Part shown: positions 9,924 to 55,571 of the stretch, piece by piece
How the letters are laid out: every line of letters starts with the position of its first letter
Position numbering within the stretch: the stretch's first letter is position 1
Origin: an uncultured Bacteroidales bacterium
GTDB lineage: Bacteria > Bacteroidota > Bacteroidia > Bacteroidales > UBA932
Direction of reading: 5' to 3'
Length of the DNA stretch: 64,000 bases
Assembly (NCBI GenBank): GCA_949289565.1
Contig: CASEOO010000028.1
Coordinates: 62,001 to 126,000 of the forward strand
Notes under the pieces: model-generated
Databases searched by the model: none
Told to the model about the DNA's origin: nothing
What the model saw: only the letters and a program-made list of their open reading frames with translations
Position numbers and translations under genes: made by a program

Positions 9924-10015
9924 AACGTGAGTTCGATGAAAAGAACGAAGTGAATTTCAGAGAACTACCTCTGTAGAGGATTCGTTGAACGAATCCGTGG
10001 GCAAGTCCTCCCATA
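9924..10015 (+). repeat. 92-bp dispersed repeat, copy 1
   Basis: This stretch matches 44831-44922 over 92 bases without gaps and with only about eight mismatches. It contains short palindromes: GATTCGTT-G-AACGAATC and CCTCT-GT-AGAGG. Just past its end TCCTCCC and GGGAGGA can pair around the sequence at 10006-10026. It lies between ampG and the NamZ gene, about 75 bases before the latter's start. The other copy lies between two lyase genes. Both are intergenic and in the same orientation relative to the genes, which suggests a small non-coding mobile or regulatory element. Confidence 0.75.
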
Positions 10016-10089
10016 CGTAGGGGAGGATTGAGGCGGGGTGATACGTAGATAAAAGAGAGATTTCGAAGAAATCGTAATATTAAAGGGTT

Positions 10090-11385: not shown

Positions 11386-11423
11386 CTAGCCTTCAGACCT
11401 GCTTTTCCATCGGTTTCTTGAGG

Positions 11424-36630: not shown

Positions 36631-36661
36631 CTTGTTTCCCCGGATAGATTTTCTAAATTTG
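36631..36661 (+). promoter_or_regulatory. Promoter of the sulfatase gene
   Basis: TAAATTTG at 36654-36661 matches TAnnTTTG, and CTTG at 36631-36634 lies at the -33 position. It lacks the direct repeats seen at the two lyase/GH88 promoters, so the sulfatase may be controlled differently from the rest of the locus. Confidence 0.5.
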
Positions 36662-36689: not shown

Positions 36690-38099
36690 ATGAAGAAAAG
36701 TGCAGACAAGGGTTTATTGAGGGCATTGCCGGCTGCTGTGGCGGCCGCTGTGCCTGGAATGTTGTATGCAGAGGCTCCGTCGGATGCCGCTAAACGCGCA
36801 GGAGACAGGCCGAACATCATTTATATCATGACAGACCAGCAGTGCGCGGCGGCGATGAGCTGTGCAGGAAACATGGATGTGTCCACGCCGAATATGGACA
36901 GGCTGGCTGAACATGGCATCAGATTTACGAATGCTTACTGCGCCATGCCTCTGAGCGGTCCTGCGAGAGGCGCGATGTTTACAGGATATATGCCGAGCGA
37001 AACCGGAATCATCGAGAACGATATCCCTATCCCGGATTCATTGCAGAACAAGACTCTCGGCACGTTGGTGGGCGAGTCAGGATATGACTGCGCATATGCC
37101 GGAAAATGGCATGTTCATACTGTGGATCTGCCGTCGGAGTTTGCATTCGGATTCCGGAATCTGCACGGCCACACCGACATAGGCCTGGCCGAGGCCTGCA
37201 TAGACTATCTCCGGGAGGATCATGGCCGTCCGTTCTTCCTGGTGGCCTCGTATATCAATCCTCACAATATCTGCGAGTTCGCCAGAAACCAGAATACTCC
37301 GCTTGCGCATATTCCTGATTTTACTTTGGAGGACTGTCCATGCCTGCCGGCCAATTATGCTGTGAATCCATATGATGCTTCCGTGCTGCAGTTCGAAAAA
37401 CGTCAGAGCTATGCCCTGTATCCGTCACAGGATTTCCGCCCGGATGACTGGAGGCGCTACCGCTATGCATATTACAGGCTGGTGGAGGCTGTGGATGCGG
37501 AGATCGGGAAGATTGTAGATGAAATAGACAGGCAAAATTTGTGGGAGAATACTGTGATCATCTTCACCAGCGACCATGGAGACGGCTGCGGCGCCCATCA
37601 GTGGAACCAGAAGACAGTCCTGTATGAAGAAGTGGCGAACATACCTTTCATAGTGTGTCTTCCTGGCGGGAAAAATGCCGGCAAGGTCCTCCCGCAGCTT
37701 ATAAACAACGGTGTGGATCTCATGCCTACCATATGTGACTGGGCAGAAGCTGAAGTGCCTGAAGGAAGGTCTGGCCTCAGCATCAGGGACGTGGCTGAGT
37801 CAGGAGATGCTTCTCTTCATCTGCGTGACTATGTCGTGACTGAGACGAATTTCAACCAGACTGCCGGCACCCTCGGCTGGATGGTGCGCACTCCTGAATA
37901 CAAATACGTCCTTTATGACAAGGGCCAGTATCGTGAGCAGCTTTACGACATGGAGGCAGACAGGGGCGAGATGGTGAATCTGGCAGTGGACGCACGCTAT
38001 TCTGACATAGTGAAAGAACACCGCGCCATGCTCCGTGAATGGATGGAAAACCATCCTGGCCCCGGCCGTGCCCGCCACTTCCGCTTCATCCCGGAATAA
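36690..38099 (+). CDS. Family S1 sulfatase, serine-type
   Basis: 469 residues with a signal peptide ending near LYAEA (residue 27). Sulfatase fold: RPNIIYIMTDQQ (metal-binding Asp), then the active-site motif SGPAR with Ser89, an S-x-P-x-R type that needs oxidation to formylglycine by an anaerobic sulfatase-maturating enzyme, then GKWHVH near 139 and IIFTSDHGDGCG near 290 (second metal ligands). The C-terminal region is complete. It removes sulfate from a carbohydrate in the periplasm. It sits at the left border of the glycan locus, convergent with the regulator gene (four bases apart), and so probably belongs to it. Confidence 0.88.
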   Translation: MKKSADKGLLRALPAAVAAAVPGMLYAEAPSDAAKRAGDRPNIIYIMTDQQCAAAMSCAGNMDVSTPNMDRLAEHGIRFTNAYCAMPLSGPARGAMFTGYMPSETGIIENDIPIPDSLQNKTLGTLVGESGYDCAYAGKWHVHTVDLPSEFAFGFRNLHGHTDIGLAEACIDYLREDHGRPFFLVASYINPHNICEFARNQNTPLAHIPDFTLEDCPCLPANYAVNPYDASVLQFEKRQSYALYPSQDFRPDDWRRYRYAYYRLVEAVDAEIGKIVDEIDRQNLWENTVIIFTSDHGDGCGAHQWNQKTVLYEEVANIPFIVCLPGGKNAGKVLPQLINNGVDLMPTICDWAEAEVPEGRSGLSIRDVAESGDASLHLRDYVVTETNFNQTAGTLGWMVRTPEYKYVLYDKGQYREQLYDMEADRGEMVNLAVDARYSDIVKEHRAMLREWMENHPGPGRARHFRFIPE

Positions 38100-38103
38100 C
38101 TTC

Positions 38104-41100
38104 TCATTTATATTCTGAAGGAAGGCATCCGAAATGCTTCTTGAAGCTGGTGGTGAAGTATGCCGGCGAGCTGTACCCGACCATGTCGCTGACCTCGGCC
38201 ACGCTGTATCTGCCGTCCTTCAGAAGTTCGCATGCTTTCGACATCCTGATTTTTCTTATAAAATCCATTGATGATGAGCCGGTGAGAGCTTTCATTTTTA
38301 TATGAAGGTTCGACCGGCTCATGTTCATGGCTTCGGCGAACATGTCGGCAGAGAATTCGGAATCATCCAGATGTGCTTCTACCGTCGATACTGCTTTTTT
38401 CAGGAATTCCGCATCGAGCTTGTTGAGGGCCATCGTCTCAGGTTTCACGTCTGCCGCTTCTGCGAAATGTCTGATGGCGCTTATCCGGGTCCGTATCATA
38501 TTTTTGACTTTCCCTGTCACTATGGCGAGGGTGAACGGTTTCGGAATATAGTCGTCAGCACCGGCCTCCAGTCCCTCCATCTGCCATTTTATATCCGACT
38601 TGGCCGAAAGCATGATGACGGGTATGTGGCTGGTCTCTATATTCTGTTTCACAGTCCGGCATAGCTTGATCCCGTCCATCACAGGCATCATCACATCGGA
38701 AAGTATGATGTCCGGCAGCCATTTTTTCATCGTCTTTACAGCTTCCTGCCCGTTTTCTGCCGCAGCCACATCGAATTCTTCCGACAGCCCGGCAGAAAGA
38801 TATTCCCTGATATCCCTGTCATCTTCTACGACCATCACCCTTGGCTTCTGGCCGGCACTTCCAGTTTCAGGTGCGGCCACCGCCGCAATGCATCCGGCCT
38901 CATTTTCAGCAGAGCCTGCATCACTGTCATATGCGGCGTCTCTGTCATCCATAATGCTCCGTACATGCACTCTTGCCGGATTCGATGAGTAGACGGTTTC
39001 TTCAGAGTGTCCGTCAGCATTTTCCATTTCATGCGGCAGGTAGGCAGATGCTTCAGCAGGAAACCAGACTGTGAAACAGCTTCCTTTTCCCGGAACGCTG
39101 TCCACAGAGACACCTCCATGATGCAGCTCCGCAAGATTCTTTACCAGAGCCAGCCCTATGCCGCTGCCCACATGGCCGCTGTCAGACTGGTAGAACCTTT
39201 CGAATATGTGCCCGGCTTTTTCCTGGCTTATTCCAGCGCCTGTGTCTTTTACTTTCAGAACGCACCTGTCATCCTCTATGCATGCTGACAGCGTTATGCT
39301 TTGTCCCTGGGCGGTATATTTGAAGGCATTGGACAGCAGGTTGTTCAGAATCATTTCAATATACTGGCCGTCGAAACATATTTCTTTTCCTTCCAGTGTG
39401 GATTCTATTTTGTAATCTATCTTTTCAGATTCCGCGGCTTCCATATAGTAGCCGAATATCTTTTCCAGCAGCGGCTGCAGCTCCGTTTTCTTGACTTTCA
39501 GATGGAACACGCCCATCTCTGCCCTGCGGTAATCCATGAGCTGGTTTACAAGGTACAGAAGTCTGTCTGTATTCTTTTCCATGTATCTGAGCCTCTTCAG
39601 CTCCCATTTGTCCTTGACTCTGGACAGAAGTTCCTGCAGCGGGGCCGAAATCATGGTCAGAGGCGTGCGGATTTCATGGGACATGTTGATGAAAAACCTT
39701 ATTTTCATTTCGTTTACTTCCCTGATACGCTCTTTGTCCACTTTTTCGAAAGCGAGCTGCATCTTCATCTTTTTTCTGATCCACAGATATCTCGCGGCAA
39801 TGTATGCCAGAGCCAGCACTATGCATAGAAGTGCAAATCTGGACCATGCAGTGTTGTACCAGTGCGGCCTCACTATGATCTCAAGGCTGGCCGGCTTTTC
39901 GTTCCATATTCCGTCCTTGTTGGCCGCAGTGACCAGAAACCGGTATTTCCCAGGCTCAAGATTGGAGTATGTGGCCGCGCGTATGGGATCTGAAACTATA
40001 TTCCATCGTTCTTCAAACCCTTCGAGTTTATATGCAAATCTGTTCTCTTTCCATGATACGTAGTCGGGTACGGAGAATGTCAGAGTAAACGAAGAATTGC
40101 CTTCTTTAAGTTTGATGGATGAGGTGTTGCCGATATGGCGGGAAAGTATGCCTGTGCCGTCGCCGGGCTTGACCATCGAATTGGACACATAGAGGCCTGT
40201 GATATTTACCGGATGGATGAAATGGTTTTCCGGCATTTTGTCAGGCTCGAATACGGTGATGCCGTCTATGCCTCCGAAATACATTTTCCCGTCTGCAGTC
40301 CTGCAGCATGAGCCGATGTTGAACTGGTTTCCAGGAAGCCCGTCGGACGAGACATAGTTTTTGAAAAGCCGTTTTCCCGGTTCGAAGCAGCTGAGCCCGT
40401 TTCCTGTGCTTATCCAGAGCCTGCCTTTCCCGTCTTCGAGAATACCGCATATGACATTTCCGGGCAGCCCGTCCTTCATTGTATAATGTGCCAGATTTTT
40501 TTCTCTCTCATCGAAACAATACAGTCCATTTCTTGTGCCTATCCAGAACTTTCTGTCCTCTGTCTCATGTATGCAATTTACAAAAGTTGCATCCAGCTCT
40601 CCGGCCTGAGGCATGATGCTGGCTGGCGTGGCTCTGTCATCATTCATATAGAAAATCTTCAGGCCTGTTTCAGTGCCTGTCCATATACGCCCTCGCGAAT
40701 CGCATTTCAGGGTGATAAGCTTCCCGGTGCTGACAGGCTTGCCTGTGCCGGTGTCGATTATCGGGTGATAGCTATGGCCTTTCAACGAAAATCTGTAAAT
40801 GTTCCCGTTGACCATGCCGAGAAGCATAGCTCCATCCTTGTATGGAAGCACTGAATATACATTCCCTCCTTTTTCTGCATAATTTTCTATATGCCCGCTG
40901 TCCTTGCTGATGATGCCTAGTCCGCCATGGTGCATTCCGGCATAGACATAGTGTTCATCGATGTACAGCGACTTTATATCATTGGCCCCCAGTCCGTCTG
41001 CCATGGTATAAAAAGAAAATTTGCCTGAGGCAGGGTCGTACCTGTTCACTCCGCCGCTGTTTGTCCCTATCCATACGATGCCGTCTCCATCTTCAGCTAT

Positions 41101-42165
41101 GCAGCTGACTATGTTGTCGTTCAGTGAATTTCTGTATGGGATGTTGCTGATGGAAGAGAATCTGCGTGTCAGGGGATGCCAATAGTTTATTCCGCCGAAA
41201 TAAGTTCCGAGCCACATGCCTCCCTGAGAGTCTTTGTATATAGCCCTGACAGATGACTGTGACAGGCTTCCCGGCTGCACGGGGTCGCTTTCGTATATTT
41301 TGAAGGTTTCGGAAGCCGGGTCGAAAACGTTCAGAGATGTGAATGTCCCTATCCACAGATTTCCGTCAGAATCTGGGCATATGGACCGTATGTAATCGGA
41401 TGATATTTTGTGTGTTCCGGTGCTGAAATGCTGGAAAGACCAGTCTTCAAGATCTATTCTGAACAGGCCGTAGCCTTCTGTGCCTGCCCATAGTACAGAG
41501 GATTTTTCAATGAAAAGAGCCTGGACTCTGTTCCCTTTGAAGAACGGGACACGCATTTCTTCGGCCGCTGTCCCGTCAGCTGATATTCTGATCAGACGTC
41601 CTTTCTTCGTCCCGATGAATATGATGTCCGTATTTCCTGCCATGGATGTGATTTCATCACTGGACAGATCGGGGACAGAATCCGGAATAGAGAACTGTTT
41701 TTTCTTGATATCGAATATTCTCAGCCCGGAAGATGTCCCCAGAAGCAGCCTGCCGTCACCCATGGCGGCTATATGCTCTATGGAAGTCTGCCGTCCTCCG
41801 GATGAAATGGAATAATTCCGGAAACGTTCTGCATCCTGGTCATATAATGACAGCCCTGAGTATGTCCCGGCCCATATGCGCCCGCCCTCATCCATGGCGA
41901 CGGTCCTGATGATGTCGCTGGCTATGGATGTGCTGTCGCTGTCATCATGCCTGAAAACCGTGAATGTGTATCCGTCGTACAGGTTGAGCCCGTTGTATGT
42001 GGCAAACCACATGTTGCCTTTTGTGTCCTGTTCTATGTCCAGCACAGTGCTCTGGGAAAGTCCTTCTTTCTCTCCGATATGGGTGAAGTATATGTCATCG
42101 GCATTGGCCGTGGAGAAAGACACGGCCAGAAGGGCAAAGACGGAAATAATGGCGGAATGTTTCAT
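38104..42165 (-). CDS. Hybrid two-component system regulator (periplasmic sensor-kinase-receiver-AraC)
   Basis: 1353 residues. Signal peptide (MKHSAIISVFALLAVSFSTA), then about 14 Reg_prop beta-propeller blades (repeated GNMWFATYNGLNLYD-like units) making a periplasmic sensor, a Y_Y_Y domain near 700-770, and one membrane helix near 780. The cytosol holds a histidine kinase with NMSHEIRTPL (near 825), a HATPase with DTGAGI and GSGIGLALV, a receiver domain (VVEDD near 1110, phospho-Asp in ILSDVMMPVMDG near 1157), and a C-terminal AraC DNA-binding domain from about 1250 to the end. Such regulators sense oligosaccharides and activate their own utilization locus; here it is divergent from the first lyase. 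Confidence 0.92.
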   Translation of the reverse strand: MKHSAIISVFALLAVSFSTANADDIYFTHIGEKEGLSQSTVLDIEQDTKGNMWFATYNGLNLYDGYTFTVFRHDDSDSTSIASDIIRTVAMDEGGRIWAGTYSGLSLYDQDAERFRNYSISSGGRQTSIEHIAAMGDGRLLLGTSSGLRIFDIKKKQFSIPDSVPDLSSDEITSMAGNTDIIFIGTKKGRLIRISADGTAAEEMRVPFFKGNRVQALFIEKSSVLWAGTEGYGLFRIDLEDWSFQHFSTGTHKISSDYIRSICPDSDGNLWIGTFTSLNVFDPASETFKIYESDPVQPGSLSQSSVRAIYKDSQGGMWLGTYFGGINYWHPLTRRFSSISNIPYRNSLNDNIVSCIAEDGDGIVWIGTNSGGVNRYDPASGKFSFYTMADGLGANDIKSLYIDEHYVYAGMHHGGLGIISKDSGHIENYAEKGGNVYSVLPYKDGAMLLGMVNGNIYRFSLKGHSYHPIIDTGTGKPVSTGKLITLKCDSRGRIWTGTETGLKIFYMNDDRATPASIMPQAGELDATFVNCIHETEDRKFWIGTRNGLYCFDEREKNLAHYTMKDGLPGNVICGILEDGKGRLWISTGNGLSCFEPGKRLFKNYVSSDGLPGNQFNIGSCCRTADGKMYFGGIDGITVFEPDKMPENHFIHPVNITGLYVSNSMVKPGDGTGILSRHIGNTSSIKLKEGNSSFTLTFSVPDYVSWKENRFAYKLEGFEERWNIVSDPIRAATYSNLEPGKYRFLVTAANKDGIWNEKPASLEIIVRPHWYNTAWSRFALLCIVLALAYIAARYLWIRKKMKMQLAFEKVDKERIREVNEMKIRFFINMSHEIRTPLTMISAPLQELLSRVKDKWELKRLRYMEKNTDRLLYLVNQLMDYRRAEMGVFHLKVKKTELQPLLEKIFGYYMEAAESEKIDYKIESTLEGKEICFDGQYIEMILNNLLSNAFKYTAQGQSITLSACIEDDRCVLKVKDTGAGISQEKAGHIFERFYQSDSGHVGSGIGLALVKNLAELHHGGVSVDSVPGKGSCFTVWFPAEASAYLPHEMENADGHSEETVYSSNPARVHVRSIMDDRDAAYDSDAGSAENEAGCIAAVAAPETGSAGQKPRVMVVEDDRDIREYLSAGLSEEFDVAAAENGQEAVKTMKKWLPDIILSDVMMPVMDGIKLCRTVKQNIETSHIPVIMLSAKSDIKWQMEGLEAGADDYIPKPFTLAIVTGKVKNMIRTRISAIRHFAEAADVKPETMALNKLDAEFLKKAVSTVEAHLDDSEFSADMFAEAMNMSRSNLHIKMKALTGSSSMDFIRKIRMSKACELLKDGRYSVAEVSDMVGYSSPAYFTTSFKKHFGCLPSEYK

Positions 42166-42188: not shown

Positions 42189-42254
42189 TTCAACAGTTTC
42201 GAAAAATTATTGGACAGTTTCTAAAGCCTGAGCCGGAACGGAACTCTAATTTTG
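42189..42254 (+). promoter_or_regulatory. Candidate regulator operator and promoter before lyase 1
   Basis: Two 16-bp direct repeats, TTCAACAGTTTCGAAA (42189-42204) and TTGGACAGTTTCTAAA (42210-42225), have a 21-bp period. TAATTTTG at 42247-42254 is the -7 box; its start lies exactly 22 bases after the second repeat's end. No -33 TTTG is seen. The same geometry recurs before the GH88 gene. Direct repeats spaced two helical turns apart suit an AraC-type activator such as the divergent hybrid regulator. Confidence 0.7.
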
Positions 42255-42289
42255 CAGTCATAATCACGGAATCAATGACACTATAGAAT

Positions 42290-44827
42290 ATGAATCTGTC
42301 CAGAATTTTTGTTTTGTCTGTGCAGGCCGCTTTCATGCTGTTTTTTTCTGCCATGCCGGCCGCCGCTCATGAATCCGCCCCGGAAAGGGTTCATGAGAAT
42401 GTGAGGGAGACACCTTATCCCCAGCCTTTTCACCAGGTTTACCTGAACCCTGCTCCGCTGCTTGCTCCCAAGTCGCTGAAGACATCAGAAAATATCCAGT
42501 TCCAGCTGTCGAAAGATCCGGATTTCAAGGACAAGTCCACTGTCACCTCAGATCCTAAGCCATGGTGCATGTTCAATCCGCATCGTGAATTGGAAAAGGG
42601 AACATGGCACTGGCGTCTGCGCTCTGTGGATGCTGACGGGAAAGCCGGGGACTGGAGCCAGACATGGTCTTTCGTGATTACTGGAGATGAGCCTGTGTTC
42701 GTCACCCCGCCCTTCAGTGAATTTTACAAGAATATGCCGAAAGGATATCCGAGACTTTACTGCTTTATAGCCGATGAACTTCAGTCCGCCTCGGATACAG
42801 TGGCCAAGCACAGGGAATACAAGGAACTTCTCCACAGGGCCGGTCTCGGTCTGAAATCGGCCGCCGATTCTGTTCCCGATCCCCGTAAAAAAGTGAAGGA
42901 GATGGCTCTGATGGCCAAGCATCTGCACACTGCGTACTGCGCTACGGGAGACAGACAGTATGCGGACAGGATGCTGGCTTTCACACGCTCTCTGCTCCAG
43001 ACAGGACCGGATGAATCTATGATGAAGCAGGATGACTTTTACGCTGGAGACTTCATGTATCTGATGCTCCATACTTATGATGTGTGTTATGAACAGCTGA
43101 CGCCTGAGGAAAGGGAAAGAATCCATGAACTCGTCATGTCCCAGGCGAAATATCACCATTTCTTCCAGCGGACAGGCTCCGAAGAGACTCATATTTTCGA
43201 CAACCACTTCTGGCAGCGCGGCTACAGGGAGATGCTCCAGATAGGCCTTATGTTCGCTGACACAGATCCCGCCGCCAGGGAGATGCTGGAGTACTGCTAC
43301 GAACTCTGGACAGCCAGGGCTCCGGCGTCAGGCTTCAACCGGGATGGCGAATGGCACAACGGCACAGGCTATTTCACTGCCAATGTCACTACTCTATGGT
43401 ATGTGCCAAGCCTGTTCTCTTATATGACAGGCACGGATTTCCTTCAGCATCCATGGTACAGGAATGCCGGCAAAGCCCTTCTATACAACTGGCCTGTAGG
43501 AACCATGAGCGCTGGCTTCGGGGATCAGAACGAGCGTCAGCTCACTCCGGACAGGCAGAGGGCCGCATTTGCTGATTTTCTGGCCAGGGAGACCGGCGAC
43601 CCTTACGCTCAGTGGTACGCCAGCCATCTGAACAGGACGGTCCGGGGCGATTTTGAAATGAGGATTTACCGCATGGCCCGCGGACATATTGCATACCCGA
43701 ATGTAAAACCGCTGCCGGAAGGGGCCGCCAAGGCTCTGTGGATGCAGGATATAGGCCAGATGGCGGCTAACTCGGCATTGCAGAACACGAACAGGAATCT
43801 TTCCTTGAGTTTCAGGTCGAGTCCCTTCGGCTCGGGAAGCCACACCCTGGCGGACCAGAACAGCTTCAACCTTCATTTCCGCGGCGTGCCGGTATACCGC
43901 TCGACAGGCTATTACCTGAATTTCAGCGATGCTCACAACCTCATGTCTTACCGCCACACCAGGGCGCACAACACCATCCTCGTCAACGGCATCGGACAGC
44001 CTTTCACTACCCGTGCCTACGGCAATATCGTCAGAATGCTGAATGGCGATCATATTTCATACGCCCTCGGAGATGCCTCCAATGCATATTGCGGCATAAG
44101 CGAATATCCGATGTGGGAGAAGAATTTCGAGAATGCCGGCATCTCGCAGACTGCTGAGAACGGCTTCGGGGAGACTCCGCTCACAAAGTACCGCCGCCAC
44201 ATTTTCCTGCTGCATCCGGACGTGGTGCTTATCTACGATGAACTGGAGGCTTCGGAGCCTGTACGCTGGGACTGGCTGCTGCACAGCCCAGTGGAGTTCA
44301 GAATTGACCGGAAAAATCATATTCTGACTACACGCTATGAAGATAAACAGTTCACCTCCATGGCACAGCTTTTCAGCAATTATCCATGCACGATTTCCCA
44401 GACTGACGAATTTGCCGTGGCTCCCGACATGTCTTTGGTGAAGCCTGGGCAGGAAGACAAATACCCGAACCAGTGGCATCTGACGGCTGCATTCGAGCCA
44501 TGCCAGGCGAACAGGATATTGACGGTCATCAGGATATTGCCGGACGGCACAGAAGATACATTGAATGTCAGGAGAGACAAGAATCGTTTCATATATGGCC
44601 ACTGGGTGATAGAGGCTGAGATGGATGCATCTAAGCCGGCATCGCTGAGAGTCGAGAACACCAGATTCGGAACAGTGTTCGACTATGGCGGCGGAGATGT
44701 GGAAATAGGGGACAAGGTATATCAAAGGCATGAGCAGGGTTCTTCAGTCCTTTATGACATGATAGACGGCGAATGGATTATACATGAAATGTCTGATTCA
44801 GCTCCGCAGATTACGGGACGTCCATAA
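42290..44827 (+). CDS. Lyase 1: DUF4962-heparinase II/III family polysaccharide lyase
   Basis: 845 residues with a signal peptide (cleavage after AAAH, near 26). The N-terminal DUF4962 region (PYPQPFHQVYLNPAPLL, about 45-150) is followed by an (alpha/alpha) toroid and a C-terminal beta-sandwich. Family catalytic candidates: His306 in FDNHFWQ, Tyr361 in NGTGYF and His518 in GSGSHTLADQ, by analogy to His202, Tyr257 and His406 of Pedobacter heparinase II; His560 lies in RAHN. It should cleave uronate-containing chains by beta-elimination. The usual second His of the S-H-x-H motif is Leu here. First gene of the plus-strand locus, behind its own operator. Confidence 0.85.
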   Translation: MNLSRIFVLSVQAAFMLFFSAMPAAAHESAPERVHENVRETPYPQPFHQVYLNPAPLLAPKSLKTSENIQFQLSKDPDFKDKSTVTSDPKPWCMFNPHRELEKGTWHWRLRSVDADGKAGDWSQTWSFVITGDEPVFVTPPFSEFYKNMPKGYPRLYCFIADELQSASDTVAKHREYKELLHRAGLGLKSAADSVPDPRKKVKEMALMAKHLHTAYCATGDRQYADRMLAFTRSLLQTGPDESMMKQDDFYAGDFMYLMLHTYDVCYEQLTPEERERIHELVMSQAKYHHFFQRTGSEETHIFDNHFWQRGYREMLQIGLMFADTDPAAREMLEYCYELWTARAPASGFNRDGEWHNGTGYFTANVTTLWYVPSLFSYMTGTDFLQHPWYRNAGKALLYNWPVGTMSAGFGDQNERQLTPDRQRAAFADFLARETGDPYAQWYASHLNRTVRGDFEMRIYRMARGHIAYPNVKPLPEGAAKALWMQDIGQMAANSALQNTNRNLSLSFRSSPFGSGSHTLADQNSFNLHFRGVPVYRSTGYYLNFSDAHNLMSYRHTRAHNTILVNGIGQPFTTRAYGNIVRMLNGDHISYALGDASNAYCGISEYPMWEKNFENAGISQTAENGFGETPLTKYRRHIFLLHPDVVLIYDELEASEPVRWDWLLHSPVEFRIDRKNHILTTRYEDKQFTSMAQLFSNYPCTISQTDEFAVAPDMSLVKPGQEDKYPNQWHLTAAFEPCQANRILTVIRILPDGTEDTLNVRRDKNRFIYGHWVIEAEMDASKPASLRVENTRFGTVFDYGGGDVEIGDKVYQRHEQGSSVLYDMIDGEWIIHEMSDSAPQITGRP

Positions 44828-44830
44828 ATT

Positions 44831-44922
44831 AACATGAGTTCGATGAAAAGAACGAAGTGAATTTCAGAGAACTGCCTCTTTAGAGGATTCGTTGAACGAG
44901 TCCGCATGCAAGTCCTCCCATA
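44831..44922 (+). repeat. 92-bp dispersed repeat, copy 2
   Basis: Gap-free match to 9924-10015, with about eight differences. It sits directly after the lyase 1 stop, in the 203-base gap before lyase 2. One arm of the internal palindrome is altered (GATTCGTT then AACGAGTC), so pairing is slightly weaker than in copy 1. An open frame starting at 44932 runs into lyase 2 but lies outside any signal peptide and is not used. Confidence 0.75.
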
Positions 44923-45030
44923 TATACTGCAGTGCGGGGAAAGTCATGCATCAGTTTAAGTTTGAGGTTAGTTAATAGTGGCATAGCCGCGCCGCATTGC
45001 AGTTTTTTGAATTTAAAATACATCTGCTAT

Positions 45031-47385
45031 ATGAAAATAATTTCATTCATCTTGGCGGCATTGCTGCCGCTGGCGGCGGCAGGAGAAGCCATCCATGAAA
45101 AATACCTGTCGGAGCCTTATCCTCAGCAAGGCGATATAATATGCATAAATCCTGTGCCTCTCAAAGTCCCTCTCTGCATGATGCAGACAGAGTTCATGCA
45201 GTTCCAGATGTCTATGGACAAACATTTCGAAGACAGCACCGTCATCACATCCGAACCGGCGGCCTGGAATATCTTCAACGCACACATGGAGCTTGCGTCC
45301 GGGACTTGGCACTGGCGTTTCCGCGGAGTCTCTGCCGGCGGGGAGACCCTTCCTTGGAGCAGGACTTTCACTTTCAGCATTGCGGAAGATACTCCTGTCT
45401 TCGTGACCCCTCCGTATGATGTATTCCGGAAAAATATTCCTGCAGAGGGCTCCCGGCTTTACTGCTTCCTTGAAGACAGTCTGCCGGAAGCGCGTAAAGC
45501 CATGAGACGGCATCCCGAGTTCGAGTCCATGATATCGGATTCCAGGACGGCTCTGGCTTCCGATTTCAGGAATGACACTCTGCCGTTCAGGCGCATTACG
45601 CAGATGTACGACATGAACCAGAACCTCTACACTGCTTACAGGATGCTGCAGAGGGAGCTCTATGCCGGCAAGATGGTGCAGAATATCCGCTGCCTGCTGC
45701 GCGCAGAGCCTGACATGACTGTGATATCTAATGATTTCAAGGCAGGAGAACTCATGTATACCCTTGCCCTGGCATACGAGAGCTGCCATGACCGTTTCTC
45801 AGACGATGAATTGAAACAAATTGAAGACTTGATGCTGCTCACCCTCAGGACGCACGAGCCTCGTATAAGAGAGAACGAAGTGGACATGTTTTTCGACAAC
45901 CATTTCTGGCAGTTCACTTTCCGCCACATGCTGCAGGGCGCCTTGGTGCTTTGCGACAGATACCCTGAGGCGGAAGAATATCTGGAGTTCAGCTACGAAC
46001 TCTGGACTAGTAAAGCTCCTGCCGCAGGCTTCAACCGTGACGGGAACTGGCACAACGGCACCTGCTATTTCAGCGCAAATGCAGTTTCGTTAGGATACGT
46101 GGCCTTGCTTTTCTCCCATCTGGCCGGAACGGACTTTTTCCAGCATCCATGGTACAGGAACAGCGGTATCGGAGTGGCTTACAGCTGGCTTCCGTGGTCG
46201 ATGTCGGCCGGATTCGGAGACGGCCACGAACAGATGAATCCCAAACCTCTGCGTATCAGAAGCGCCTATGCCGACATGCTGGCACGCGAAACCGGAGACC
46301 CGTATGCCGCCTGGTATTCTTCTCTGAACGACAGATATCTCGACGAGCCGGAAACCAGATTCTACAGGATGGCCTGCGGGAAATCCCGTCCGGCCAATGC
46401 TGACTTGCCGGCAGATGCACCGGAGGCCGTATGGTTCGAAGATTCAGGCGAGTTCCTCGCCAATTCTGATCTCCGCGATCCGGATAGCAATCTCAGCCTG
46501 AGTTTCAGGTCCAGCCCGTTCGGTTCGGGAAGCCACACTCATTCGAACCAGAATGCTTTCAACCTTCATTTCCGCGGAGTCCCGGTCTATAGATCAGCCG
46601 GACATTATATGAATTTCCAGGATCCGCACAATCTTCTGCAGTACAGGCATACACGCGGACATAACACGGTCTTGGTAAATGGCATCGGACAGCCTTTCAC
46701 CTCCGGAGCATTTGGGCAGATTCTGGAAACTGTGGCCGATGACGGATTCGCATACGCGCTCGGAGATGCCTCGAATGCTTACTGCGGTGTCAGTGAAGAT
46801 CCGATGTGGATAGAGAAAATGGCTTCCTCAGGCGTGGAGCAGTCGGTGGAGAACGGTTTCGGGAAGACTCCTTTGAAGAAATTCCGCAGATATATAGCTA
46901 TGCTCGGTGATGACAAGGTCCTGGTTTATGACGAGCTGGAGGCTTCTGAGGCCGCTGAATGGGACTGGCTGCTGCACAGCCCGGTACGTTTCGATATTGA
47001 GGAGAATGTCCTCTATACCGAAAATCTGGAGCATGGCTTCCATGCGCGGACAGCGTTGTTTGCGACAGACAGTCTGGAAGTGTCGCAGACAGACAGATAT
47101 TGGGCTCCAGTGAATGAAACCGTGGCTCAAAGAGGGGAGGATTTCACTCCCGAATGGTCGCTTTCAGCGAAGACAGCTCCGCTGAAAAAGGTGAGGATAC
47201 TGGCCCTCATCCAGGTAAAGGACGGGCATGTGGCTTTTGAAGACATTGTCCGTGAGGACACCTGCATTTTCAGGTTCGGGAACTGGACAGTGGAGGCGCA
47301 GATGAATCCAGACAGGAAGGCAGGGCTGCGGATATCTGATTCTGTTTCAGGAAAAGAGTATAAACTGCCTTCAGAGGCATTGTAG
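45031..47385 (+). CDS. Lyase 2: DUF4962-heparinase II/III family polysaccharide lyase
   Basis: 784 residues from the ATG at 45031, which opens a signal peptide (MKIISFILAALLPLAAAG); an upstream in-frame start at 44932 would hide it. Same plan as lyase 1: DUF4962 start with EPYPQQGDIICINPVPL, His291 in FDNHFWQ, Tyr346 in NGTCYF, His502 in GSGSHTHSNQ. Unlike its paralogues it keeps the second His (His504) of the S-H-x-H motif but has Ser-Asn in place of Ala-Asp after it. It is periplasmic or surface-exposed and ends just before the second operator. Confidence 0.85.
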   Translation: MKIISFILAALLPLAAAGEAIHEKYLSEPYPQQGDIICINPVPLKVPLCMMQTEFMQFQMSMDKHFEDSTVITSEPAAWNIFNAHMELASGTWHWRFRGVSAGGETLPWSRTFTFSIAEDTPVFVTPPYDVFRKNIPAEGSRLYCFLEDSLPEARKAMRRHPEFESMISDSRTALASDFRNDTLPFRRITQMYDMNQNLYTAYRMLQRELYAGKMVQNIRCLLRAEPDMTVISNDFKAGELMYTLALAYESCHDRFSDDELKQIEDLMLLTLRTHEPRIRENEVDMFFDNHFWQFTFRHMLQGALVLCDRYPEAEEYLEFSYELWTSKAPAAGFNRDGNWHNGTCYFSANAVSLGYVALLFSHLAGTDFFQHPWYRNSGIGVAYSWLPWSMSAGFGDGHEQMNPKPLRIRSAYADMLARETGDPYAAWYSSLNDRYLDEPETRFYRMACGKSRPANADLPADAPEAVWFEDSGEFLANSDLRDPDSNLSLSFRSSPFGSGSHTHSNQNAFNLHFRGVPVYRSAGHYMNFQDPHNLLQYRHTRGHNTVLVNGIGQPFTSGAFGQILETVADDGFAYALGDASNAYCGVSEDPMWIEKMASSGVEQSVENGFGKTPLKKFRRYIAMLGDDKVLVYDELEASEAAEWDWLLHSPVRFDIEENVLYTENLEHGFHARTALFATDSLEVSQTDRYWAPVNETVAQRGEDFTPEWSLSAKTAPLKKVRILALIQVKDGHVAFEDIVREDTCIFRFGNWTVEAQMNPDRKAGLRISDSVSGKEYKLPSEAL

Positions 47386-47394
47386 ACGAGATTT

Positions 47395-47460
47395 TTCAAC
47401 GATTTTAAAAATTTATTCAACGCATTTAAAAGTCTTGCGCAAACATTCGGACTATTTTTG
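47395..47460 (+). promoter_or_regulatory. Candidate regulator operator and promoter before the GH88-susCD operon
   Basis: Direct repeats TTCAACGATTTTAAAA (47395-47410) and TTCAACGCATTTAAAA (47416-47431) have a 21-bp period, with TATTTTTG at 47453-47460 starting 22 bases after the second repeat's end, as at 42189-42254. Nine positions (TT, AC, TT, AAA) are the same in all four repeat copies. This promoter should drive GH88, susC, susD and downstream genes. Confidence 0.72.
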
Positions 47461-47481: not shown

Positions 47482-48774
47482 ATGATGAACAGACACTTTG
47501 AAACGAAATTGAATTCATGCGCGGCGCTTCTATTGTTTTCGGCCGCCATCTTTTCTTCATGCGCTAACGATGATGAAGCATGGGTGAGCCGGGCTTTGGA
47601 CACGGCCGCATATCAGCTGGACATGACAGCCGGGGAGCTGGATGGCACAGGCATGATGCCCAGGACGGCAGTGACCGGATATGATGTCGATTTTCTGGCT
47701 TCACAGCTGGAAAAAGACAAGTCTGCATTTGTGGATTCTCTGGTGTCGAATCCTCCTGCAGAAAATCTCGGCCGTCTCAAGCCGTGCGGCATCATAGACT
47801 GGACGAGCGGATTTTTCCCTGGAAGTCTCTGGTATGCATACGAGCTGACTGGGAAGGAAAATCTGAAAGAGGAGGCCGTGAAGTATACTAATCTGCTGTA
47901 TCCGATACGGAAATTCGAAGGCTCGCACGATATAGGTTTCATGATAGGCTGCAGCTACGGCAATGCATGGCGTCTTTCACCGGATGACACCGTGAAGAAT
48001 GTGATAGTCGAGACTGCGAATACTCTCAGTTCCCGTTTCGATGATGGCATAGGATGCATACGTTCCTGGGATTTCGGTCCGTGGAACTATCCTGTCATCA
48101 TAGACAACATGATGAACCTGGACCTGCTGTTCATGGCCAGCCGCCTTTCGGGTGATCCTGGCTATAAGCAGATAGCTGTCCGCCACGCCTTGACTACCAT
48201 GCAGAATCATTTCCGCCCGGATTTCACTTCGTGGCACGTAGTGAGCTATCTTGATGACGGTTCAGTGGAGAAACGGCAGACACATCAGGGAAAAAACGAC
48301 GATTCCGCATGGTCCAGAGGCCAGGCCTGGGGAGTCTACGGATATACTTCCTGTTTTCGTGAGACAGGTGATTCGCTTTTCCTGAAACAGGCTGTGAATA
48401 TAGCAGACATGATTATGGAGAGGAATGCCGCGCCTGACTTGATACCGTATTGGGATTTCGATGCTCCTGTCACGGACGATACGCCGAGGGACGCTTCCGC
48501 GGCCGCAGTCATGGCATCGGCATTCATAGAACTGAGCACATTTGTTCCTGAGGACGGTGAAAAATATTTCGTGTACGCCAAGAATATTCTCAAAACGCTC
48601 TCATCTGATGCCTATCTGGCGGAGAAAGGGACTAATGCAGGATTCATCTTGAAACATTCCACCGGTTCGCTTCCGCATGGCTCGGAGATAGATGCCCCGC
48701 TCAACTATGCCGACTATTATTACCTGGAGGCTATGAAACGCTATCTGGACATTTCCAGGGGATCGGACAGGTAA
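47482..48774 (+). CDS. GH88 unsaturated glucuronyl hydrolase
   Basis: 430 residues from the ATG at 47482 (47485 is equally possible); an earlier in-frame TTG at 47458 lies within the promoter. Lipoprotein signal with Cys near 29 (IFSSC). The (alpha/alpha)6 barrel carries the two catalytic-type acidic residues: Asp208 in DNMMNLDLLF and Asp274 in DDSAWSRGQAWG. GH88 enzymes remove the 4,5-unsaturated uronate left by lyases through hydration of the double bond. Position between three lyases and SusC is textbook for a glycosaminoglycan-type locus. The preferred linkage and sulfation cannot be read from sequence. Confidence 0.9.
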   Translation: MMNRHFETKLNSCAALLLFSAAIFSSCANDDEAWVSRALDTAAYQLDMTAGELDGTGMMPRTAVTGYDVDFLASQLEKDKSAFVDSLVSNPPAENLGRLKPCGIIDWTSGFFPGSLWYAYELTGKENLKEEAVKYTNLLYPIRKFEGSHDIGFMIGCSYGNAWRLSPDDTVKNVIVETANTLSSRFDDGIGCIRSWDFGPWNYPVIIDNMMNLDLLFMASRLSGDPGYKQIAVRHALTTMQNHFRPDFTSWHVVSYLDDGSVEKRQTHQGKNDDSAWSRGQAWGVYGYTSCFRETGDSLFLKQAVNIADMIMERNAAPDLIPYWDFDAPVTDDTPRDASAAAVMASAFIELSTFVPEDGEKYFVYAKNILKTLSSDAYLAEKGTNAGFILKHSTGSLPHGSEIDAPLNYADYYYLEAMKRYLDISRGSDR

Positions 48775-48815: not shown

Positions 48816-51800
48816 ATGAAACATTACATTAAACTGGCGGCGATATTTTTCCTGATGGCGATTCCCATGTTTTCTATGGCTCAGGAAATCACTGTCTCAG
48901 GAGTCGTGGCCGATGAAGAGGGCATACCGGTCATAGGCGCTTCCGTCATGGTCAAGGGACAGACCCAGGTCGGCACCATCACAGACATCGACGGCAGATT
49001 TTCCATGAAGTCCGCCCCGGATGCCATCCTGCAATTTTCTTATATAGGCATGCTGACGGCAGAAGTCCCTGTAGACGGCAGAAACACGCTCGAAGTCACC
49101 ATGAAATACGACTATACAGAGCTGGACGAGGTCGTGGTCATAGGTTATGGCGCATCGAAAAGAAGCGAGCTTACAGGCTCGGTGTCATCAGTGAAATCAG
49201 AAGAAATCATGAGCACTCCGACATCCGATGTGGCTCAGGCTCTTGCCGGCCGTGTGGCAGGTGTCCAGATAGTCCAGTCGGAAGGCGGTCCCGGCGCTGA
49301 AGTTTCCATCCGTGTGCGCGGAGGCATGTCCATTACACAGAGCAACGAGCCTCTGTACGTCATAGACGGTTTTCCTACGGAAGACGGAATGTCTGATCTG
49401 GACCCTGGCGACATAGAAACTATCGATATATTGAAGGATGCTTCTGCCACGGCCATTTACGGGGCCCGAGGGGCCAATGGCGTCGTCCTGATTACCACCA
49501 AGTCCGGCGGTGCCAGGGATGATTCGAAAGTCAATGTCAGCTTCGACACCTATGTCGGATTCGGCAAGCTTGCAAAGAAACTTCCTGTGCTCTCTTCTGA
49601 AGAGTTCGTTCTTATGGACTATGAAAGGAGCTGGTTCCTGACAGGGGAAGACGGAGTCCGTGCATCCCAGAACAGATACGGCTCTCTCATCGAGCGCGAT
49701 TCAAATTATGCCGGACGTTTCATCGACTGGCAGGATCTGACACTCGGACGCACCACCCTCACACAGAATTACAGGGTCAATGTCTCAGGAGGGACGAAAG
49801 ATCTCAAATACGGGCTCAGCTATGCGTACTTCAACAGTGAAGGCGCCATGGTGTATAGCGGAAGTGAAAAGCATACAGTCTCTTTCAATATTTCGCACAA
49901 CAGCGGCAAGCGGTTTTCAGTGAACGCCAGGGTAAACTATTCATATAACAAAGTCGAGGGAGTCGGCACATCCGAAGAAAGCACCCGTTTCAACAAAATG
50001 GAGCAAATCCTCCAGTACCGTCCTACGGCCGGCATTGACGGCTCGGATCTGGAACTCATGGAAGGAGAAGATCCTCTGTACGAGGATGACGAGTCCAATC
50101 CCATGCAGAATCCTCTGATCACGGCAGCCGAGGAAAAGGACGACCGTGTCACGCGGAATCTCCAGATCAATGCAGGTTTCACCTTCCGCTTCAACAAGCA
50201 CTGGTATTTCAGAAGCAATCTCGGAAGCCGCTACCGTATTACGCGCAGGGACCAGTTTTACGGTGAAAATTCATCGACAGCCAAACGTTCCAGCATCAGC
50301 GGCAGTGTCCAATACACTGAAAATATGACATTCCAGATATCCAATGTGCTGAACTATGAGTACAAAGTGAAAAACCACAGGCTCACATGGATGCTGGGAC
50401 AGGAATATGTGATGCGCAACGCGCAATGGGTGAGATCGTCGGTCACCAACCTTCCGAACAATGACATCGCCCTCGATGACATGAGTCTCGGAACGCCAGG
50501 CGCTATCACGTCGAATGTGAATTTTGATGACAGGCTGCTTTCGTTCTTCACCCGTCTGAACTACAATTTCGGCGAGAAATACATAGTGCAGGCCACTCTC
50601 AGGGCTGACGGCTCATCCAAATTCAGCACAAATCACAAATGGGGCATCTTCCCTGCCGTTTCCGCTTCATGGCGGCTGATTGAAGAAGATTTCATCAAGA
50701 ACCTGAATGCCTTTTCAGACTTGAGGCTCAGGGCGGGCTATGGACTGGCTGGAAACAACAACATAGCCAGCTACTCTTCTCTCGACCTGCTGAAATCAGC
50801 CAGCTATCCGAGCGGGGAGACAGTGACTCCTGGATATACCCCGTCAGGCATACCGAACACTGAACTGCAATGGGAGTCCAACCAGACTTTCAATGTGGGC
50901 CTCGATCTCGGTTTCTTCCGCCAGAGGCTGACCATAACGCCTGAGTTCTACCTGAACCGCAGCTCGCATCTGCTGCTGAATTCGAAGGTGCCTATGTCTT
51001 CCGGCTTCACCACGATGATGCGGAATATAGGAAAGACCAGAAATATCGGAGTCGACCTTACAGTCACATCTGTCAACATCGACAAGAATGATTTCACCTG
51101 GACTACAAACCTGAATATTTCCCATAACAAAAACGAAATAGCGGCGCTCTCGGGCGAGGAGTATTTCCTCGAAGAGGCAACCTTCGGATACAACCAGAAC
51201 ACTCATATCATAGAAGTCGGGAAGCCTGTCGGCCAATTCTATGGTTTCAGGACCATAGGCCTGTATCAGGTGGAGGATTTCGACTATGATGCCGCCACAG
51301 GCACATATACTCTGAAAGACGAAGTTCCCGGAAGGGCAGGAGTCCAGCCGGGATACTGGAAATTCGAAGATGTGGACGAGGATGGGGATATCGATGACAA
51401 TGACCGCACAGTCATCGGAAATGCAAATCCTCTTTTTTTCGGAGGCATCACAAATAATTTTTCATACAAAGGTTTCGACTTGAGTGTCTTTTTCTCTTTC
51501 AGTTACGGGGCGCAGGTGCTCAATGCCACGAAATTGACAAATACCAAGACCGGCATGACAAACAAGAATGTCCTGGCCATAGCCGGAAGTTCCGACCGCT
51601 GGATGACTGTAGATTCCTTCGGAAACAGTGTCACATCTCCCGAGGCATTGGCTGCCATGAACGCGGGAAAGACAGTGGCCTCGGTGGCTGACTCAGAGCA
51701 GGGTGACAACTATGTTCACTCATGGGCAGTTGAAGACGCTTCATATCTGAGGCTGAGCAATGTCACTTTCGGCTACACATTCCCGTCCAAATGGATGAAA

Positions 51801-51980
51801 AAGGCTAAGATACGCAAGCTCAGGCTCTATGTTACGGGCGGCAACCTTTTCTGCCTCACTCCGTACACCGGATTCGACCCGGAGGTATCCACACGCGGGA
51901 ACACACTGACGCCTGGAGTGGATTTCGGAGCCTATCCGAGAAGCAGGACATTTGTGGCAGGACTGAATATAACATTTTAG
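48816..51980 (+). CDS. susC: SusC-type TonB-linked outer-membrane transporter
   Basis: 1054 residues. Signal peptide ends at MAQE (near 23). A CarboxypepD_reg-like domain (ITVSGVVADEEGIPVIGAS, 25-105) precedes the SusC signature LDEVVVIGYGASKRSELTGSV near 110. The plug has VRGGMSITQSNEPLYVIDG near 168, and the barrel runs to the C-terminal VAGLNITF. With SusD, four bases downstream, it imports oligosaccharides across the outer membrane. Full length for the family. Second gene of the GH88-led operon. Confidence 0.95.
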   Translation: MKHYIKLAAIFFLMAIPMFSMAQEITVSGVVADEEGIPVIGASVMVKGQTQVGTITDIDGRFSMKSAPDAILQFSYIGMLTAEVPVDGRNTLEVTMKYDYTELDEVVVIGYGASKRSELTGSVSSVKSEEIMSTPTSDVAQALAGRVAGVQIVQSEGGPGAEVSIRVRGGMSITQSNEPLYVIDGFPTEDGMSDLDPGDIETIDILKDASATAIYGARGANGVVLITTKSGGARDDSKVNVSFDTYVGFGKLAKKLPVLSSEEFVLMDYERSWFLTGEDGVRASQNRYGSLIERDSNYAGRFIDWQDLTLGRTTLTQNYRVNVSGGTKDLKYGLSYAYFNSEGAMVYSGSEKHTVSFNISHNSGKRFSVNARVNYSYNKVEGVGTSEESTRFNKMEQILQYRPTAGIDGSDLELMEGEDPLYEDDESNPMQNPLITAAEEKDDRVTRNLQINAGFTFRFNKHWYFRSNLGSRYRITRRDQFYGENSSTAKRSSISGSVQYTENMTFQISNVLNYEYKVKNHRLTWMLGQEYVMRNAQWVRSSVTNLPNNDIALDDMSLGTPGAITSNVNFDDRLLSFFTRLNYNFGEKYIVQATLRADGSSKFSTNHKWGIFPAVSASWRLIEEDFIKNLNAFSDLRLRAGYGLAGNNNIASYSSLDLLKSASYPSGETVTPGYTPSGIPNTELQWESNQTFNVGLDLGFFRQRLTITPEFYLNRSSHLLLNSKVPMSSGFTTMMRNIGKTRNIGVDLTVTSVNIDKNDFTWTTNLNISHNKNEIAALSGEEYFLEEATFGYNQNTHIIEVGKPVGQFYGFRTIGLYQVEDFDYDAATGTYTLKDEVPGRAGVQPGYWKFEDVDEDGDIDDNDRTVIGNANPLFFGGITNNFSYKGFDLSVFFSFSYGAQVLNATKLTNTKTGMTNKNVLAIAGSSDRWMTVDSFGNSVTSPEALAAMNAGKTVASVADSEQGDNYVHSWAVEDASYLRLSNVTFGYTFPSKWMKKAKIRKLRLYVTGGNLFCLTPYTGFDPEVSTRGNTLTPGVDFGAYPRSRTFVAGLNITF

Positions 51981-51983
51981 AAC

Positions 51984-53675
51984 ATGAAGAAGAATTTGAC
52001 ATATATTCTGACGGCTTGCGCCTCTCTGGCCTCCTGTTCTGGAATCCTTGACGAGAATCCCGGTTCATACTATGAACGTGAAGAATTCTTCAAGGATGCA
52101 CAGACTGCCGCCATGGGCATCACTGGCATATACAATGTGCTGCCTCTCCTTTACGGCGACTATGAAATGGCAATGGCGGCCTCTGATGACACATATTATG
52201 TCTCAGGCGTAAACCAGGACAACGGGCGTCGTGACATCGCTCACTATCAGCTGACCACGACCAACACATACGTCGAGAATGACTGGAGGTATACCTATGA
52301 CGGCCTGAACAGGGCGAACTACATGATAGCCGGCATCGAAGGCATGGATGGGTATGCAGACAGCGAAGAACTGCGGCTGCTGGTGGCTGAAGCGAAATTC
52401 CTCAGGGCATTCCTTTCTTTCAACCTGGTCAGATATTGGGGCGATGTCCCGTACAAGACGGAATATACCGGCAGTTATGAGCAGGCATACGGACCGAGAG
52501 TAGACAGGGAAAAGATTTATGACCAGATTGTGGCAGATCTCGAAGATGCGAAGATATTGCCATGGGCAGACGGATCTTCATCTCCGGAAACAGCTGCTCA
52601 AGGTGCTGTAAGAGGTCTGCTGATGAGGGTGCTGCTGGCCAGGGCAGGATACAGCCTGCAGATGGACGGCACACTCGACAGACCGTCGGATGCAGTGCGC
52701 CGGGAATATTTCGAAGCCGTCATCCGTGAGTGGGAGGCATTCGTGGAGAACGGATATCACGGATTCTATCCTGGAGGATATGAAGCGTTGTTCCGCTCTT
52801 TCTCCCAAGGCGAACTGAATTCGAAAGAGAGCATCTTCGAAGTGGCCTTCTATACCGTGGACGGAAGGACAGGAGCGCGTGGGTATTGGGGTACATATAA
52901 CGGCCCTCTGGTAGCCGCTCCCGGCATCGAAACTACTGAGACTGACGGTTATATGGGCAGGGCCAACGCCATGTTCCGCGTCATTCCGGAGTGGAGGGAC
53001 TTCTTCGAGTATTCAGAAGAGGAAAACGGAGTCCGGGACGAGAGACGCGATGTCATGGTATGCACTTATCAGTACAACTGGGACAGCGAGACCTATTCCC
53101 ATGTGGTTCAGGACAATATCACCAGGCCGAAGAACTGGTATCCCGGCAAATGGAGACGTGAATGGATGCCGCTCGGCTACAAAGACCCGAATATCACTGA
53201 CGTGAACTATTGCAGCATCCGCTATGCCGATGTGGTGCTGATGGCTGCCGAGGCATACAATGAGACAGGAGAGACCGGCAGGGCATGGGAACTTCTGAAC
53301 AGCGTCAGAAGCCGCGCCGGAGCATCGCAGATTACCTCCTCGAACTATGCATCTCTGATGAAATCGCCTAAAGTGTATGACCTGGCATTTATTGACGACA
53401 GCGATGAGGCCGGCAGATTCCGGACAGCACTTTTCTGGGAGCGAGGATTTGAACTCGCATTCGAAGGCCACAGGAAATACGATCTTATTCGCTGGGGGAT
53501 TCTGAAAGAGGCTCTTGCCCTGCCTGCAGATCATGACACCCGCGCAAATCAGGGAGAAGACGCCTTCATAGCGAAGACCACGTTCCAGAGCGGGAAGCAC
53601 GAACTCTTCCCGATTCCGCTGGACGAAATCCAGGCGAACCCGTATCTGAACAACACAAATAACCCTAATTATTGA
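51984..53675 (+). CDS. susD: SusD/RagB family glycan-binding lipoprotein
   Basis: 563 residues. Lipoprotein signal with Cys18 (SLASC). N-terminal TPR-type helices (YDGLNRANYMIAGIEG, AEAKFLRAFLSFNLVRYWGDVPY) and the C-terminal RagB/SusD block (FWERGFELAFEGHRKYDLIRWG, then FPIPLDEIQANP) are complete. It forms the lid of the SusC transporter and binds the oligosaccharide at the cell surface. Gene order and a 3-base gap after susC show translational coupling. Confidence 0.95.
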   Translation: MKKNLTYILTACASLASCSGILDENPGSYYEREEFFKDAQTAAMGITGIYNVLPLLYGDYEMAMAASDDTYYVSGVNQDNGRRDIAHYQLTTTNTYVENDWRYTYDGLNRANYMIAGIEGMDGYADSEELRLLVAEAKFLRAFLSFNLVRYWGDVPYKTEYTGSYEQAYGPRVDREKIYDQIVADLEDAKILPWADGSSSPETAAQGAVRGLLMRVLLARAGYSLQMDGTLDRPSDAVRREYFEAVIREWEAFVENGYHGFYPGGYEALFRSFSQGELNSKESIFEVAFYTVDGRTGARGYWGTYNGPLVAAPGIETTETDGYMGRANAMFRVIPEWRDFFEYSEEENGVRDERRDVMVCTYQYNWDSETYSHVVQDNITRPKNWYPGKWRREWMPLGYKDPNITDVNYCSIRYADVVLMAAEAYNETGETGRAWELLNSVRSRAGASQITSSNYASLMKSPKVYDLAFIDDSDEAGRFRTALFWERGFELAFEGHRKYDLIRWGILKEALALPADHDTRANQGEDAFIAKTTFQSGKHELFPIPLDEIQANPYLNNTNNPNY

Positions 53676-53699: not shown

Positions 53700-54449
53700 A
53701 TGAACGGAAAGATATTGTTTACAGTTCTGCTTATGTCGTTTTCATGCCTGGTGCATATGAACGCGGAAGCAGCCTGCATGGAAATCTCAGATAGATCTGA
53801 GCCTCCATACAAATACATGCAGAAAGGAATCAAGACAAAACTCGAAGATGTCAAGTCTGCAAAATCTTCCAAGTCTTCGCCTTCGGCCAATGCGTCTGGC
53901 GGAAAGATGCAGGCGCGGTCTTCTGAAACGCCGGTTTCCGATGGCCAGCAAGCATCTGCAGGTGAATTTTTCGCCGCAGTGAAGACCAATATCGCTTATT
54001 ACGCCGGGGCTGTCGCCAATATCGGTGCAGAAGTGCAGCTTCATCCTCATGTCACTCTCGATATGCCGGTGAGCATGAGCTTTTGGGATATGGAGCGCGC
54101 ACATGGCTTGCGCCTGGTCTTGTTCCAGCCTGAAGCACGTTACTGGTTCAGCCATGCAGGCTCCGGACATTTCATAGGACTTCATGCCCATGCGGCCGGA
54201 TTCAATATCCAGTGGAATGACTGGAGATACCAGTCTGCCGGTCGGCCATTGCTGGGAGGCGGGATATCATACGGTTATTCTTTGCGTATATCAGGCCGCT
54301 GGAATTTCGAGTTCAATCTCGGTGCAGGATATGCAAACATGAAATATGACCGTTTCTATAATATTGACAACGGAGCGCAGTCCGGAGGCGGAGAGTACGA
54401 TTACTGGGGAATCACGCGCCTTGGGCTTTCATTAGTGTACAAGTTCTGA
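53700..54449 (+). CDS. DUF3575 family outer-membrane protein
   Basis: 249 residues. Signal peptide ends near NAEA (residue 24). A low-complexity Ser/Lys linker (about 52-85) precedes a small beta-barrel or barrel-like DUF3575 domain: FFAAVKTNIAYYAGAVANIGAEV near 95, YWFSHAGSGHFIGLHAHAAGF near 148, and a C-terminal LGLSLVYKF typical of outer-membrane proteins. DUF3575 genes often start Mfa/FimA-type fimbrial operons in Bacteroidales, and fimbrillin-like genes follow here. Role in the glycan locus unknown; it may assemble or anchor the surface proteins encoded next. Confidence 0.82.
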   Translation: MNGKILFTVLLMSFSCLVHMNAEAACMEISDRSEPPYKYMQKGIKTKLEDVKSAKSSKSSPSANASGGKMQARSSETPVSDGQQASAGEFFAAVKTNIAYYAGAVANIGAEVQLHPHVTLDMPVSMSFWDMERAHGLRLVLFQPEARYWFSHAGSGHFIGLHAHAAGFNIQWNDWRYQSAGRPLLGGGISYGYSLRISGRWNFEFNLGAGYANMKYDRFYNIDNGAQSGGGEYDYWGITRLGLSLVYKF

Positions 54450-54474
54450 GTCCAATTCATAAAACGATAATCTG

Positions 54475-55464: not shown

Positions 55465-55479
55465 ATGATATGCGGAAAT

Positions 55480-55507
55480 TTTCCATGATAGAAAAATGGC
55501 ATGGAAA
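55480..55507 (+). other. Hairpin in the gap between the two DUF6562-like genes
   Basis: TTTCCATG (55480-55487) and CATGGAAA (55500-55507) form an 8-bp stem. The 107-base gap also holds a single TTCAACAG at 55525-55532, as in the locus operators, but no second repeat 21 bases on and no -7 box. Confidence 0.4.
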
Positions 55508-55571
55508 GAATCCGGATGAAATTATTCAACAGCAAGTTTAATCAATCGAAGACAATAACCAATAACGTATT

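Follow-up and report, generated by a model that had tools for sequence, protein, structure and literature searches.

Two promoters of a glycan locus of an uncultured Bacteroidales bacterium carry the same pair of direct repeats at the same distance from the -7 promoter box, and both pairs are very probably operators of the divergently encoded regulator, a hybrid two-component system (HTCS) of the BT4663 type (HTCS_Hep). The promoters precede the genes of lyase 1 and GH88 in a DNA stretch of 64,000 nucleotides, further referred to as the window. This prediction is supported by the motif and register kept at the lyase-1 promoter of a sister species, and by half-sites found at BT4663-type loci of the same genus and of Bacteroides, mostly in two tandem pairs and in register with the -7 box. 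The bt4662 promoter is among them, and the response-regulator part of BT4663 shifts a fragment of this promoter in gels (PMC11253607).

In each promoter a 16-bp element is repeated with a 21-bp period, and the original prediction had placed both pairs (42189/42210 before lyase 1 and 47395/47416 before GH88) exactly to the base. The consensus of the four copies is TT..AC...TT..AAA; a recount agreed that nine of the 16 positions are invariant. As had been claimed, the TAnnTTTG box starts at position +22 counted from the end of the second copy in both promoters, leaving 21 bases between them, and the -33 TTTG is absent, there being no TTTG within 30 bases upstream of either box. The sulfatase promoter had been described as free of the element, and indeed its box at 36654 has no half-site pair in the operator register; the register scan found none at the other TAnnTTTG boxes of the window either. 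The direct repeat in both promoters (16 + 5 bp, 21 bp apart) has the form of the HTCS operators of the type described by Ravcheev et al. in 2013. Both sites are located upstream of polysaccharide-utilization genes with an HTCS gene adjoining, the families present being HTCS, lyase, GH88 and SusC/D. A reverse-strand match with three mismatches, whose last part (TACCATTG) stands right at the start codon of the HTCS gene, was considered as a sign of HTCS autoregulation and rejected as a promoter, since a start site there would fall inside the gene. The features are listed in Table 1.

Table 1. Predicted operators, promoter boxes and genes of the locus (positions in the window).
Feature	Position	Strand	Sequence	Basis and remarks
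Lyase-1 operator half-site H1	42189..42204	+	TTCAACAGTTTCGAAA	L105 (promoter of the sister species) has 13/16 bases identical, invariant positions all kept
Lyase-1 operator half-site H2	42210..42225	+	TTGGACAGTTTCTAAA	14/16 identical in L105
Lyase-1 -7 promoter box	42247..42254	+	TAATTTTG	Identical box at equal distance in L105
GH88 operator half-site H1	47395..47410	+	TTCAACGATTTTAAAA	Sequence geometry
GH88 operator half-site H2	47416..47431	+	TTCAACGCATTTAAAA	Sequence geometry
-7 promoter box of the GH88-susC-susD transcription unit	47453..47460	+	TATTTTTG	Unit inferred from gene order
Sulfatase	36690..38099	+		Pfam, register scan; promoter (box 36654) without the element
BT4663-type hybrid two-component regulator, proposed binder	38104..42165	-		Pfam: Reg_prop sensor, Y_Y_Y, HisKA, HATPase, receiver, AraC-type HTH
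Lyase 1 (DUF4962 + Hepar_II_III_C), predicted target gene	42290..44827	+		Pfam; best PDB match 6lja
Lyase 2 (DUF4962 + Hepar_II_III_C)	45031..47385	+		Pfam; no own operator found in the register scan
GH88, unsaturated glucuronyl hydrolase-like, predicted target gene	47482..48774	+		Pfam
SusC-like TonB-dependent receptor, presumed downstream member of the GH88 unit	48816..51980	+		Pfam
SusD-like protein	51984..53675	+		Pfam

Given that the two promoters had been compared after the fact, the chance test left period and place free: both promoters were subjected to dinucleotide shuffling (n = 400), and any common period of 17–25 at any place was accepted. The shuffled pairs most often had four invariant columns and at most seven (one case of 400); nine were reached in none. 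With up to three mismatches allowed, the repeat pair has four matches in the window vs 0.02 expected, one of them on the opposite strand, overlapping the site at 47395. In 250 sampled genomes of the genus the full geometry with zero mismatches occurs at three sites, namely the two window sites and the lyase-1 promoter of the sister species (G243).

The window regulator has a BT4663-type sensor, a kinase, a receiver and an AraC-type HTH, and by homology it belongs to the hybrid two-component systems of the BT4663 type (HTCS_Hep). For the sensor, the match to PDB entry 4a2l covers nearly the full length and scores 733 bits. We take this entry to be BT4663 of Bacteroides thetaiotaomicron. The protein encoded at locus L262, to which the window HTCS is 47.7% identical over its length, has a sensor part 100% identical to the compared 306-residue stretch of 4a2l. 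BT4663 is a heparin-binding regulator and was named HTCS_Hep (PMC3878776). For lyase 1, the closest PDB entry is 6lja, a heparinase II/III-like protein, and the enzymes of the locus, with GH88, sulfatase and SusC/D neighbours, agree with a role of the HTCS_Hep type. Degradation of heparin/heparan sulfate is the probable function of the locus; a ligand of this type is proposed from the homology of the sensor only. Positions 53700–57134 of the window, between susD and a third DUF4962/heparinase-like lyase gene (57152–59722), contain a DUF3575 gene and two DUF6562 genes, one of them also Mfa2-like; these genes are fimbrillin-anchor-like and lie inside the glycan locus.

The gene order sulfatase, HTCS, lyases 1 and 2, GH88, susC, susD is kept in one sampled relative, the sister species G243, and the DNA-binding domains of the two HTCSs are 76.5% identical. 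Its lyase-1 promoter retains 27 of the 32 half-site bases, including 18/18 at invariant positions, as well as the box (8/8) and four of the five spacer bases, whereas agreement in the 21-base linker (6/21) and in the 60 bases upstream (21/60) is near random. The lyase-1 orthologue of another congener, G050, has the same geometry (2 mismatches in the genome scan; 15 of the 18 invariant bases kept). The operator there belongs to a lyase 1 / GH88 / lyase 3 group (L106 11717, contig C1 of G050). No HTCS was found beside it in the fetched neighbourhood; hence a regulator encoded elsewhere must serve this site, probably the HTCS on contig C14 of G050, acting in trans. No such site precedes the nearest GH88 orthologues in G243 and G050, apparently because GH88 directly follows a lyase gene in these genomes. 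Conservation of the motif at orthologous loci, proposed earlier as a check, was thus borne out for lyase 1 in both relatives and failed for the two closest GH88 orthologues, so the GH88 site rests on similarity to other operators and not on positional conservation. Half-site quads stand before GH88 genes at related loci.

A matrix based solely on the four copies in the window was run on related loci left out of its construction. It yielded ten pair-plus-box cases, the pair being located exactly 63 bases before the box in eight of them, vs two cases altogether in 20 shuffled sets. The genes identified downstream include those of PL12-type (Hepar_II_III_N) lyases and GH88. Half-sites of these promoters start at -99, -78, -58 and -37 relative to the box; of these positions, just -58 and -37 are used in the window promoters. 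A weak register match (L066 14516) with an unrelated ORF downstream was set aside as probable chance.

Two other contigs of the same genome carry sites of this kind. On contig C22 a near match to the window sites, a pair in the exact register (last repeat 451–466, box 488) with a third copy 21 bp upstream, precedes hepB, a heparin/heparan-sulfate lyase gene (NF045571, 1350 bits), which is a probable in-trans member of the predicted regulon. Contig C35 encodes a second BT4663-type HTCS together with a Hepar_II_III_N lyase, whose promoter has four half-sites, and GH88. The gene of this HTCS (L002; C35 46356–50350) is split over two reading frames with ORFs of 1142 and 268 aa, a result of a frameshift, decay or an assembly error.

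Thirty BT4663-type loci were taken from Bacteroides, the genus of B. nordii. They contain 16 pair-plus-box cases, of which ten are at a distance of 63 or 64 and five of the remaining six at 22, 23, 43 or 44; shuffled sets gave 0–3 cases each and at most one per distance. The B. nordii stretch L049 contains no pair in the operator register. The B. nordii relative at 10001–13976 of this stretch likewise appears in two overlapping frame segments, near 10851–10912. Locus L262 is the BT4663 locus (100% match to 4a2l), and the adjoining gene, encoding a Hepar_II_III_N (PL12-type) protein, is presumed to be bt4662. The promoter of this gene has the sequence TTAAACAAAAACAACA-5-CTCAACAAATTTGATA-5-AAAATCATTTTTGAAC-5-ATGAACAACCTAAATT-21-TACATTTG: the predicted half-sites are spaced 21-21-21, the last one ends 22 before the box, and the last two, which are weaker than the first two, stand in the register of the window. 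The bt4662 promoter shares half-sites and register with the window promoters. The response-regulator part of BT4663 shifts a fragment of this promoter in vitro (gel shift, PMC11253607); the half-sites within the fragment remain predictions.

At other HTCS loci the lag of 21 is enriched as well: it occurs in 13 of the 70 promoters from the genus and in 10 of the 51 from B. nordii, other lags averaging about 2 with a maximum of 6. Across these mixed HTCS promoters no single dominant offset to the box was found, and the register is claimed for BT4663-type loci only. At a different HTCS locus of a congener (L190 10165), TTGGACTTTATGAAAC / TTGGATTTTGCGAAAA start at -58 and -37, a hint that regulators outside the BT4663 type may share the register; the downstream gene encodes a protein of 1033 aa whose size and start are SusC-like. 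For BT4663-type HTCS promoters across Bacteroidales, we see an even chance that half-site pairs are generally locked to the -7 box in one-pair or two-pair modules. The proposed starts are -58/-37 for the proximal pair and -99/-78 for the distal pair, one base further in Bacteroides. If this grammar is true, the core promoter and regulon members would be callable from sequence alone, and the number of modules may set promoter strength or sensitivity.

It is extremely improbable that the repeats are a chance likeness between AT-rich promoters or stem from promoter DNA that was recently duplicated. The half-sites are AT-rich and just 16 bp long, but nine invariant columns never arose by shuffling, the elements are conserved across species where their flanks diverge, and the two window promoters are unlike each other in the spacers and surroundings of the repeats, which argues against duplication. 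It is also very improbable that an unrelated one-component AraC-type or other regulator binds these sites and the neighbouring HTCS is a bystander. AraC-type half-sites generally resemble each other, and HTCS binding to the window sites is itself predicted. However, in Bacteroides, too, the motif accompanies BT4663-type HTCS loci and keeps its register, and the BT4663 response-regulator part binds the bt4662 promoter fragment (PMC11253607).

The sites could be true HTCS operators and yet have the C35 paralogue, alone or jointly with the window HTCS, as the main binder. The DNA-binding domain of this paralogue is 54.8% identical to that of the window HTCS, its own locus carries similar half-sites, and the hepB site on contig C22 resembles the C35 half-sites (ACAAATTTGA) more than those of the window. 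We consider this unlikely, given that the C35 gene is split over two frames, positions 7–9 of the half-sites are not the same in the window and in the C35 type, and it is the window HTCS that adjoins the operator, with synteny kept in G243.

In the mechanism that we infer for the window HTCS, the regulator would sense heparin/heparan-sulfate-type oligosaccharide in the periplasm and phosphorylate its own receiver domain, and this phosphorylation would free the AraC-type domains. Once free, they would pair on the same face of the DNA, one at each half-site (TTnnACnnnTTnnAAA, 21 bp from centre to centre). The half-site nearer the box, ending 21 bp before TAnnTTTG, would span about -49 to -34 relative to the start site. 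Because it lies next to the position of the absent -33 TTTG, the activator probably takes the place of this element in recruiting RNA polymerase; the direction of control would be activation, with lyase 1 and the GH88-susCD unit switched on. The register to the box, looked at with regard to AraC-type class II activation, is fixed in the two window promoters, at related loci of the genus and at the Bacteroides loci. The original prediction of an AraC-type pair on the same helix face, two turns apart, with the divergent hybrid regulator as the candidate binder, fits everything that could be tested.

In the Escherichia coli araBAD promoter, the AraC half-sites I1-I2 are direct repeats 21 bp apart, the downstream one located beside the upstream promoter element. 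The window operators would work in a similar way. The window regulator, unlike E. coli AraC, is a membrane-bound phosphorelay hybrid, the window promoters have a Bacteroidota -7 box, and nothing points to looping between the window operators and a distant site, in contrast to araBAD.

The earlier remark that defined operators for such regulators are few must be corrected: the 2013 prediction covers 16 HTCS motifs, all of them direct repeats spaced 21 bp apart on average, and HTCSs were proposed to bind as dimers on one side of DNA, two turns apart (PMC3878776). The window operators are likened to these by geometry (direct repeat, 16 + 5 bp, 21 bp between centres), notably to the HTCS_Man group with its 16-bp sites and 5-bp spacer (PMC3878776), although HTCS_Man is a different regulator subfamily. 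With the HTCS_Hep (BT4663) regulon of B. thetaiotaomicron (Ravcheev et al. 2013, PMC3878776) they have in common the regulator type, heparinase-family lyases as predicted targets, the sequence class of half-sites and the register of the proximal pair to the -7 box. They differ in the number of half-sites: bt4662 has four, arranged as two tandem pairs (21-21-21), and each window promoter just the proximal pair, in which the half-sites are stronger. The lyases differ in domain type as well, with DUF4962 in the window and Hepar_II_III_N at bt4662. We did not find a register fixed relative to the -7 box, or the one-pair/two-pair form, stated in PMC3878776 or in the accessible part of PMC11253607. 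A repeat noticed by eye becomes a conserved predicted operator of a named regulator class, and the locus is assigned to a heparin/heparan-sulfate-type regulon with hepB as a probable in-trans member. The precise geometry eases regulon prediction and promoter mutagenesis in many mostly unstudied gut Bacteroidota. The window operators are a well-supported new case of the predicted HTCS direct-repeat operators, to which the fixed register and the one-pair and two-pair forms are a modest addition.
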